From Syncephalis fuscata (lineage: Eukaryota; Zoopagomycota; Zoopagomycetes; Zoopagales; Piptocephalidaceae), in NCBI GenBank assembly GCA_025786725.1, contig JAHLTZ010000012.1:434001-498000 (forward strand): a stretch of 64,000 bases of DNA, given 5' to 3'. Positions 39,424 to 64,000 of the stretch are shown one piece after another. Position 1 is the stretch's first letter, and the number at the start of each line of letters is the position of its first letter. A program made the position numbers and the translations under genes. The notes under the pieces are model-generated. The model searched no databases. It saw nothing but the letters and a program-made list of their open reading frames with translations, and was not told where the DNA came from.

Positions 39424-39802
39424 TTGGTCATTGCTGTATTGTATAATACCGACGATTACATTTACAATAGCCAATCTTACTAACGATGAAATTATTGATA
39501 TTTAAATGTAAATCAAATGTAATTATGGACATAACACATTAATCGAATATAATTAATGAAATCATATGTTTATTAATGGATTTTTGCATGGCTGAATAAA
39601 CACAGCTAAATGCAAAATTGCCGATAATATAATAATGTCATTAATTAAGAGTTGAATAGACTGGAGCATTGGTTGGAACTCGATATGTGAATGAACTGGA
39701 CTGCAGCTGACAAATGATCTTGTTTTTGCTGGATATATACCTAAAGTGTATTGGACTGCCATTCTAGTAACACTGACAATGCTAATGCCTTTAAAGCATC
39801 GG

Positions 39803-42800
39803 TTATGCTATTTAATAAATAATAGGCCACATACGATATAATTAACATATCTGCCATTTTTGTATAATTATACCTACCTTCTATTAATACAAATCATTAA
39901 GCATTACAATACATAACATATATTTAATACTTGTTTGGTTAATATACAACTCCACTTACTGGCTATTAATATAAATTGGTAAGTATCCACAGCATATAGC
40001 ATGCAATTAGTATGTAGTTAGTTAGTATACAATATTATTTACCGCCTATCAGCATAAATTATTAAATATATCCAAGATGTAGCATATAATTAGTACATAT
40101 CCACTTACTGCATAATTTTACTTACCATCTATTAATACAAATTATTGAATATATAATGATATTAGATTAATGCATAGTTAATATAAAATGTCACTTACGG
40201 CCTATCAGTATAGGTTATTAAACACACACAACATATAGCATGCAATTAGTACATAGTTAGTTAATATACAATATCACTTACCAGCTATTAATACAGGTTA
40301 TTTAGCATGCAATGGTATTTAATTAATGCATAGTTAATATAAAATATTACTTACGACCTATTAATACAGGTCATTAAACATCCACAACGTATATCATGTA
40401 ATTAATACATATTTGCTAGTATATTATGTCACTTACGAGCTATCATTATAGATTATTAAACACCCACAACATATAGCATGTAATTAGTACATATCCACTC
40501 ACTGCATAATTTCACTTACCAACTATTAATACAAATTATTGAGCATGTAATAGTATTTAGTTAATGCATAATTAATAAATATAAAATTTCACTTACGAGC
40601 TATCCGTATAGGTTATTAAACATACACAACATATAGTATGTAATTAGTACATATTTGTTAGTATATAATGTCACTTACGACCTATCAATACAGGTTATTG
40701 AGTATTCACAACATATAGAATGCAATTAGTACGTAGTTAATTAATATACAATGTCACTTACGGCCTATTAACACAATTATCAAGCACACACAGCGCATAA
40801 CACATAATTAATGCATAATTGGTTGATACACAGTGTCACTTACCAACTATTAACACAATTATCAAGCACACACAGTGCATAACACATAATTAATGCATAA
40901 TTGGTTGATATACAACGTCACTTACTGGCTATTAACACAATCAGCAAGCACACACAGCGCATAACACATAATTAATGCATGATTGGTTGATATACAATGT
41001 CACTTACCGTCTATTGACACAATTATCAAGCACACATAGCGCATAACACATAATTAATGCATAATTGGTTGATATACAGTGTTACTTACTGCCTATTAAC
41101 ACAATCATCAAGCACACACAGCGCATAACACATAATTAATGCATAATTGGTTGATATATAATGTCACTTACCAACTATTAACACAATCAGAAAGCACACA
41201 CAGCGTATAACACATAATTAATGCATAATTGGTTGATATACAATGTCACTTACGAACTATTAACACAATCATCAAGCGCACACAGCGCATAACACATAAT
41301 TAATGCATAATTGGTTGATATACAATGTCACTTACTGGCTATTAACACAATCAGCAAGCACACACAGCGCATAACACATAATTAATGCATAATTGGTTTA
41401 TATACAATGTCACTTACCGTCTATTAACACAATTATCAAGCACACACAGTGCATAACACATAATTAATGCATAATTGGTTGATATACAGTGTTACTTACT
41501 GCCTATTAACACAATTATTAAGCACACACAGCGCATAACATATAATTAATACATAATTAGTTGATATATAGTGTTACTTACCGCCTATTAACACAATTAT
41601 CAAGCACACATAGCGCATAACATATAATTAATGCATAATTAGTTGATATACAGTGTTACTTACTGCCTATTAACACAATTATCAAGCACACACAGCGCAT
41701 AACACATAATTAATGCATAATTGGTCGATATACAATGTCACTTACCAACTATTAACACAATCATCAAGCACACACAGCGCATAACACATAATTAATGCAT
41801 AATTGGTCGATATACAATGTCACTTACCAACTATTAACACAATCATCAAGCACACACAGCGCATAACATATAATTAATACATAATTAGTTGATATATAGT
41901 GTTACTTACCGCCTATTAACACAATTATCAAGCACACACAGCGCATAACATATAATTAATGCATAATTAGTTGATATACATGTTACTTACTGCCTATTAA
42001 CACAATTATCAAGCACATACAGCGTATAACACATAATTAATGCATAATTAGTTGATATACAATGTTACTTACTGCCTATTAACACAATTATCAAACACAC
42101 ACAGCGCATAACACATAATTAATACATAATTGATTAATATACATGTTACTTACTGCCTATTAACACAATCATTAAGCACATACAGCGCATAACACATAAT
42201 TAATGCATAACTGGTTAATATACATGTCACTTACTGCCTATTAACACAATTATCAAGCACACACAGTGCATAACACATAATTAATGCATGATTGGTTAAT
42301 ATACATATCACTTACTGCCTATTAACACAATTATCAAGCACACACAGCGTATAACACATAATTAATGCATAATTGGTTGATATACAGTGTCACTTACCGC
42401 CTATTAACACAATTATCAAGCACACACAGCGCATAACACATAATTAATGCATAATTGGTTGATATACAATGTCACTTACGGCCTATTAACACAAGCAGCA
42501 AGCACACACAGCGCATAACACATAATTAATGCATAATTGGTTGATATACAATGTCACTTACCGCCTATTAACACAATCATTAAGCACACACAGCGCATAA
42601 CACATAATTAATGCATGATTGGTTAATATACAATGTCACTTACGGCCTATTAACACAATTATCAAGCACACACAGTGCATAACACATAATTAATGCATAA
42701 TTGGTCGATATACAATGTCACTTACTGTCTGTTAACACAATCATCAAGCACACACAGCGCATAACACATAATTAATGCATAATTGGTCGATATACAATGT

Positions 42801-43852
42801 CACTTACGATCTATTAACACAATTATCAAGCACATACAGCGTATAACACATAATTAATGCATAATTAGTTGATATACAATGTTACTTACTGCCTATTAAC
42901 ACAATTATCAAGCACATACAGCGCATAACACATAATTAATACATAATTGATTAATATACATGTTACTTACTGCCTATTAACACAATCATTAAGCACATAC
43001 AGCGCATAACACATAATTAATGCATAACTGGTTAATATACATGTCACTTACTGCCTATTAACACAATCATTAAGCACACACAGCGCATAACACATAATTA
43101 ATGCATAATTGGCCGATATACAATGTCACTTACGGCCTATTAACACAATCATCAAACACACACAGTGCATAGCATGTGGTTAGTACATAGCTAGTTAATA
43201 TACAATTTCACTCACGTTCTATCGATACAAATTATTAAACATACATCGGATAGCATGCCGTTAATGTCTAGTTGAGTTATAGACTACGTCACTTACGAGC
43301 TATCATTATAGATTGTTAAACATGATTTATATTATATGTTTAGCGCATAGCTGGTTAGTATATGATGCACTCACGATCTATCAGAGTTAAATTGGTAAAA
43401 ACAATATTTGATTAAATAAATGAATTATTGTTATTACCGTAGCTTACCTCCTATTGATGCAAATGCAGCACATTAGTATCATCAATGTAATATCAATTTA
43501 TTGCTTTATGTTAAACCTACTTTTAGCCAATGGCGCTGGTTGACCCATTGTATATTAAAACAATAATTAATCAGCATATCAGTAAATAGTTATAATCAAT
43601 ACTTACCGACTGTTTATGCGTGTGTTGATTGTGTGTATGGCAATATTCAATAAGTGTTGGAACAATAGTTCATAATCATGGCTTACCGGCTAATACCATC
43701 ATCGGTTAAATATAATGTTAGTAAGCGTATCAAATTCCAAATTTATTGCAAAACATACCACGACGGATTTGGTTTGGTTTAGCATCCACCATGGCAGTAT
43801 TGACCACGAAAGCCACAACGAGGGTGCAGACGACGGCAATAGAAAGCTTCAT
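39803..43852 (-). CDS. secreted peptide gene built of about 47 single-codon (3-nt) exons
   Basis: Exon 1 (43852-43759) encodes a signal peptide, MKLSIAVVCTLVVAFVVNTA, then MVDA-KPNQIRR, and stops one base into the next codon before GTATGT. Intron 1 has a perfect TACTAAC. Thereafter come 3-nt exons between AG and GT. Low coordinates of each, in transcript order: 43687, 43607, 43448, 43375, 43297, 43216, 43134, 43052, 42971, 42890, 42808, 42726, 42644, 42562, 42480, 42398, 42316, 42235, 42154, 42073, 41991, 41910, 41828, 41746, 41664, 41582, 41500, 41418, 41336, 41254, 41172, 41090, 41008, 40926, 40844, 40762, 40679, 40597, 40520, 40437, 40355, 40282, 40199, 40126, 40043, 39960, 39878. A 15-nt exon (43535-43521) probably lies after the second. 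All introns are phase 1. The product is basic, Ser/Gly-rich, with dibasic sites, about 84 residues. The terminal exon (CA then TAA, 39807-39803) is the nearest option and is uncertain. Splicing is inferred, not shown. Confidence 0.65.
39878..43220 (-). repeat. tandem array of about 82-bp intron-plus-triplet units
   Basis: From about 43,136 to 40,762 the unit is 81-82 bp and near-identical: donor GTAAGTGACATTGTATATCA, then ATTATGCATTAATTATGTGT, GTGTGTGCTTGATAATTGTG and acceptor TTAATAG, followed by the variable triplet. Towards both ends (40,680-39,878 and 43,690-43,216) units diverge and spacing ranges 72-83 bp, as expected for an array that expands in its middle. Triplets by hand count: GCA 11, GCC 5, GCG 5, TTG 5, CCA 3, CTC 3, the rest once or twice. 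They are about 66% G+C in strongly AT-rich surroundings. Confidence 0.92.

Positions 43853-62920: not shown

Positions 62921-64000
<1,080 letters not shown>

Follow-up and report, generated by a model that had tools for sequence, protein, structure and literature searches.

Can a gene be built almost entirely of exons that are one codon long? The question is raised by an array on the minus strand of a 64,000-nucleotide stretch of the Syncephalis fuscata genome (contig JAHLTZ010000012.1), referred to here as the window, in which AG, three bases and GT recur dozens of times downstream of a leader exon. The initial annotation, made from the letters alone, took the array to be a secreted-peptide gene of single-codon exons in a fungus, and the fungal attribution was correct. 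We conclude that the locus is very probably a functional protein-coding gene and belongs to a large S. fuscata family in which single-codon exons would encode nearly the entire mature peptide. This reading is supported by an open model of 50 exons, by a scarcity of stops that is confined to phase 1, by intronless paralogues that run continuously across the predicted junctions, by triplets that change faster than introns and by a genome-wide excess of three-base gaps. A 15-nt exon, the gene family and the intronless relatives were not part of that annotation. Elsewhere in the window, positions 62943-63764 of the plus strand hold an adenosylhomocysteinase exon, and its closest counterpart from a named species is that of Syncephalis pseudoplumigaleata (96%).

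Structure of the window gene

The predicted model of the window gene runs on the minus strand from 43852 to 39803. It begins with a 94-nt leader exon and ends with a stop-bearing terminal exon; of the 48 exons between them, 47 are 3 nt long and one is 15 nt (Table 1). Its 49 introns are predicted to be 69-80 nt long, 100% of them GT-AG, and the intronic total of 3,795 bases separates 255 nt of coding sequence that is open throughout and would yield MKLSIAVVCTLVVAFVVNTAMVDAKPNQIRRAVAPLAKRDPQRRSSNHSRGRGSSSSSVVGSGNAILGNAIGRPLARPGHGAKA. The model was set by hand and then checked; automated chaining, limited to 130-nt introns, shortened several chains.

Table 1. Features of the window gene, and positions of a dispersed element in the arrays of related loci
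Feature	Position	Strand	Remarks
Exon 1, 94 nt	43759..43852	-	Start codon and leader MKLSIAVVCTLVVAFVVNTAMVDAKPNQIRR; hydrophobic core, terminal dibasic RR; ends in phase 1
Three-nucleotide exons (47), span	39878..43689	-	First CCG at 43689-43687, last AAG at 39880-39878
15-nt exon CGCCATTGGCTAAAA	43521..43535	-	Bordered by cag before and gtagg after; in frame PLAK, with neighbours APLAKR
Terminal exon start	39803..39807	-	CA, then stop TAA at 39805-39803
AATAAA, possible polyadenylation signal	39569..39574	-	Within conserved 3' region
Dispersed element	L010 5064, L011 4440, L012 3783, L017 4244		Positions in oriented loci
Dispersed element, continued	L019 3386, L023 1879, L024 2489, L039 2858		Positions in oriented loci

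A regular expression for AG-NNN-GT matched the window 51 times, and with four overlapping or internal matches set aside this leaves the 47 units originally counted; exon 1, its phase-1 end and its product had also been placed correctly. The units lie 73-83 bp apart (72-83 bp in the initial annotation) except for one gap of 159 bp, which houses the 15-nt exon. The donors are of the expected consensus (GTAAGT, GTAAGC or GTGAGT, with one GTAAAT and one GTAGGT), and the triplets have the G+C content of about 66% reported for them (0.66, against 0.29 in the introns). Exons of 15 nt similar to that of the window gene are present in four related loci, L012, L014, L017 and L021. The RR that ends the exon 1 leader is presumably a Kex2-type site, and beyond it the product carries a second dibasic site, KR. 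The hydrophobic core of the leader and these dibasic sites suggest that the product is secreted and processed at dibasic residues. Further downstream, a model derived from the intronless copies of the family matches the 3' region (E 4.8e-45).

The array consists for the most part of tandem repeats (unit 82 bp, 29.7 copies, 91% matches), which would suit a satellite or protein-binding repeat of ~82 bp with splice-like motifs arising by chance and no gene at all. Such an origin is scarcely credible, given that the arrays are framed by a conserved leader and a stop-bearing terminal exon, that they hold a single open frame with the codon statistics described below, and that a search of Rfam returned zero matches at E up to 0.1.

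Three-base exons as codons

When exon length was left free (0-40 nt) across 34 regions, 681 of 693 chained exons were exactly 3 nt long. The splice-site matrices used for this chaining were themselves derived from the 3-nt units of the window gene, and a census of the genome is therefore the fairer control. In the census WATAG-N3-GTAAGT occurred 3,287 times, against 60 for the reversed control, and the corresponding counts were 223 against 245 for gaps of 0-2 bases and 543 against 423 for gaps of 4-9; enrichment over the reversed pattern was found genome-wide only at the 3-nt gap. The strict pattern is fitted by 602 of 868 chained units, so that the genome may contain some 4,650 such units, a figure that duplicated contigs may inflate. 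Looser chaining, with the start forced at each leader, gave 486 exons of 3 nt among 518, the longer pieces mostly spanning gaps or ends and frequently containing stops. It was used in place of chaining with strict splice scores, under which 13 of 26 leaders had no chain.

Codon behaviour was assessed on 72 arrays, which come from 40 of the 44 sequences; exon 1 determined the phase in which junction codons were read. In phase 1 there is a single stop among 796 junction codons, against 25.7 expected when all triplets are shuffled (minimum 12 in 2,000 shuffles) and 27.2 when they are shuffled within arrays (minimum 15 in 2,000). Phase 2 gave 63 stops, against 72.7 and 68.1 for the same two shuffles, and after removal of 10 near-duplicate loci the one phase-1 stop stands against 20.3 expected. 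TAA, TAG and TGA are absent as triplets from all 868 units, which alone is weak evidence because only 1.0-1.8 of each are expected from the first two bases. The middle base of the triplet, which in phase 1 is the third codon position, is T, C, A or G at frequencies of 0.51, 0.25, 0.16 and 0.08, close to the values for third positions in the mature parts of intronless copies (0.38, 0.29, 0.20 and 0.13, respectively). Scarcity of GTA and GTG triplets (7 each, against 20.5 and 21.3 expected) and of CAG (1 against 4.2), in counts made non-independent by duplicates, is consistent with avoidance of rival splice sites. Judged from the sequence, the triplets behave as phase-1 codons.

Since all 3-nt, phase 1-1 exons could be skipped in frame, the array might instead be one long intron, either removed whole as 4 kb or in steps with the AG-NNN-GT points as stepping stones, to leave a product of leader and stop. 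Recursive splice points are described in PMC13149111, and the leader and terminal exon alone would still yield a short peptide. We nevertheless judge this very improbable, because stop avoidance confined to phase 1, the third-position composition and the agreement of cysteines and of AVxPLAKR with intronless paralogues require triplets that are joined and translated.

Arrayed and intronless members of one family

The leader is found genome-wide in at least 150 scored matches out of 345 candidates. Among the 57 leaders in the loci examined, a sample biased by the deliberate choice of long frames, 37 have the donor at the usual place, 15 are intronless and five were unclassed by the donor rule; L016, L023, L030 and L036 of these five lead into arrays and L035 is intronless. 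Protein searches for the leader family, by profile and by single sequence, listed matches from Syncephalis fuscata alone (9 of 9 and 15 of 15); the searches covered annotated proteins and would miss unannotated copies in other species. Annotation misses this class of gene, several public models of family loci being truncated or running into introns. The public predicted leader proteins P0122, P0123, P0125 and P0127 have tails that resemble intron read-through or a false exon, and that of P0122 is a 42-nt stretch of L012 with a donor inside it. Five proteins compared with Pfam gave zero matches above the curated cut-off; the best match, TMF_TATA_bd (3.8e-5), was to the predicted product of L028, and such matches are helical and of low specificity. 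L028 comprises about 83 units, has a product predicted to be helix-like, and holds the single phase-1 stop; some of its units, like some of those in L009, have just 2 bases between AG and GT. On the plus strand of the window, an open frame at 1966-2406 would give a protein rich in glycine and tyrosine that starts much like a leader and contains ERR; it may be a further secreted repeat peptide.

In L044, L049, L052, L056, L058, L059, L060 and L064, among others, the leader runs on uninterrupted, and the mature part of those named has six cysteines. The intronless paralogues have their leader, upstream DNA, stop and 3'UTR in common with the arrayed genes and are continuous at the sites of predicted splicing. 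Intronless L069 reads AVEPLAKR and L070 AAPLAKR, and the window gene spells AVAPLAKR. The 3'-region model from intronless copies has 38 array-side matches. In 29 of them an AG precedes the first homologous position by exactly two bases, and TAA comes next in 23; the other 9 have no AG at the expected place. A cysteine framework is common to two arrayed/intronless sister pairs. The product of arrayed L010 (27 small exons; one 6-nt exon in the model), KCEECRKRCPKVYGTLFCVGLC, aligned with that of its intronless sister L058, ECEECLNICFSQLNSSLHCYSSC, with a score of 41, and 0 of 2,000 shuffles of exon order scored as high; for L050 (two 6-nt exons) and L056 the score was also 41, with 1 of 2,000 shuffles as high. 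The peptides of L042 and L044, which are not sisters in the tree, gave no significant similarity (263 of 2,000 shuffles as high).

The tree was made from leader and 3'UTR with 43 rows, L068 having no 3' region and L069 being partial. Arrayed and intronless copies are intermixed on it, with at least six changes, four of them forced by well-supported branches, and a single intronless clade is rejected (p-AU 2.7e-11). Sister relationships were recovered for L010/L058 (support 98/89), L050+L051/L056 (99/96) and L016+L030/L035 (100/99), and with weaker support for the window's group and L069 (92/77). Because L044 shares 220-278 upstream bases (83-90%) and L049 shares 221-303 (78-82%), each with nine arrayed copies, a simple retro-insertion origin of the intronless copies is disfavoured. 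The two forms may interchange by cDNA-mediated intron loss or by formation of arrays in place, and the tree gives no direction.

Comparison of 11 duplicate pairs showed differences at 103 of 669 triplet positions and at 748 of 13,896 intron positions, and the AG/GT splice dinucleotides changed at 2 of 892. Seven pairs were tested further, the other four having no triplet change; the excess of triplet change is significant in four of the seven and not in three, and 56 of 56 changed codons in these pairs are non-synonymous. Unit exchange, or misalignment among like introns, can inflate the triplet excess, so that diversification is supported and positive selection is not proven. L009 (C24), a close duplicate of the window gene about 65 kb away, diverges from it by 3% in introns and 30% in triplets at aligned units. 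Of the 129 triplet bases of the window gene that are either aligned or gapped in this comparison, 18 stand opposite a gap in L009. Such unit differences between duplicates fit the suggestion in the initial annotation that recombination could generate peptide diversity.

A dispersed element of ~270-400 bp with a conserved core occurs within array introns in 8 of the 44 sequences and follows the donor at a similar distance (Table 1). A tRNA-like stretch was suspected in it by eye, but an ARAGORN scan of five loci detected no tRNA. That inserted elements break these arrays, and that L009 and L028 contain irregular 2-nt units, might indicate former micro-exon genes of which most copies are now decaying, with a few intronless genes doing the work. 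With stops nearly absent across 868 triplets and AG/GT sites almost constant between duplicates, widespread decay appears improbable, and functional arrays remain the preferred reading.

Proposed mechanism and comparison with known systems

In a functional gene of this kind exon 1 would supply the prepro leader, the single-codon exons, each flanked by ordinary introns of ~79 nt, would supply the mature peptide, and the terminal exon would supply the stop. Each short intron would be excised as one unit by the spliceosome (intron definition). Removal may proceed mostly 5' to 3'; each step would then add one codon and place a long upstream exon next to the following GTAAGT donor, still intact. 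Such a ratchet would resemble recursive splicing, except that each step retains three bases. Intron secondary structure gave no signal as a splicing aid in six introns (z -0.70 to 1.23). To judge by the leader, the product would be secreted and then cut after dibasic residues. Syncephalis is described as mycoparasitic (PMC10386755), and this lifestyle and the variability of the peptide suggest that it acts outside the cell, most likely on the host fungus. Units gained or lost as 82-bp cassettes would add or remove one amino acid without a frameshift.

Every 3-nt exon is symmetric, and skipping is proposed for schistosome micro-exon genes (MEGs) in PMC7653826, so the arrays might mainly serve to make many peptide isoforms by single-codon skipping, which is compatible with the main reading. 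The near-uniform consensus splice sites fit constitutive inclusion at least equally well, and we hold isoform production as the chief role to be a minority possibility. A fuller scheme is put forward tentatively and with some doubt: ~4,650 single-codon exons would act as cassettes from which a strict 5'-to-3' ratchet writes the peptide, cassettes would be gained, lost and exchanged, and perhaps skipped, to yield a secreted anti-host repertoire, and repeated conversion between arrayed and continuous forms would fix successful peptides.

By structure this would be an extreme micro-exon gene family, apparently of independent origin. In the openly licensed PubMed Central literature we found no prior description of consecutive 3-nt exons or of micro-exons in Syncephalis's fungal group, nor of such genes in Syncephalis genome papers. 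The structural definition of a MEG given in PMC7653826 is at least seven exons, at least half of them micro-exons of less than 70 nt and divisible by three, with a run of at least four; in the predicted window model the 3-nt and 15-nt exons together make up 48 of the 50 and follow one another without a break. The MEGs of schistosomes and tapeworms are alike in their secreted products, their runs of small exons divisible by three and the difficulty of annotating them (PMC7653826). Their exons are given as 3-81 bp and their introns as up to 5 kb (PMC10526429), whereas in the S. fuscata family, which is fungal and has intronless sisters, nearly all internal exons are 3 nt and introns are 69-80 nt, as in the window gene. 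The likeness of this family to flatworm MEGs is one of gene structure.

The aphid bicycle genes are described as fast-evolving, secreted putative effectors with many small one-phase internal exons, almost all in phase 2 (PMC9168663), whereas those of S. fuscata are of phase 1 and 3 nt. One aphid gene is said there to exceed 100 micro-exons, so that the number of exons in S. fuscata is not a record. If the present reading is true, a parasite of fungi would be the third setting for micro-exon secreted-protein families, after flatworms and aphids, and its peptides would be a case of proteins that vary in length and sequence by whole-codon cassettes. A one-codon exon size would also be reached dozens of times consecutively, testing how the spliceosome defines exons too small for both splice-site complexes.

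At zero-nucleotide recursive splice sites adjoining acceptor and donor likewise permit stepwise removal (PMC13149111), whereas S. fuscata keeps three bases per step, these intervening between AG and GT at 47 of 47 window sites, and has short introns. Fungal spliceosomes are reported to handle ultra-small exons, such as the 1-nt exon of Fusarium CYP621A (PMC12940212), and the Trichoderma Xlr2 microexon is another tiny fungal exon (PMC11121469). Those are lone tiny exons in ordinary genes, whereas in S. fuscata arrays of them would encode the mature product, and the standout feature of the family is its uniform single-codon exon size.
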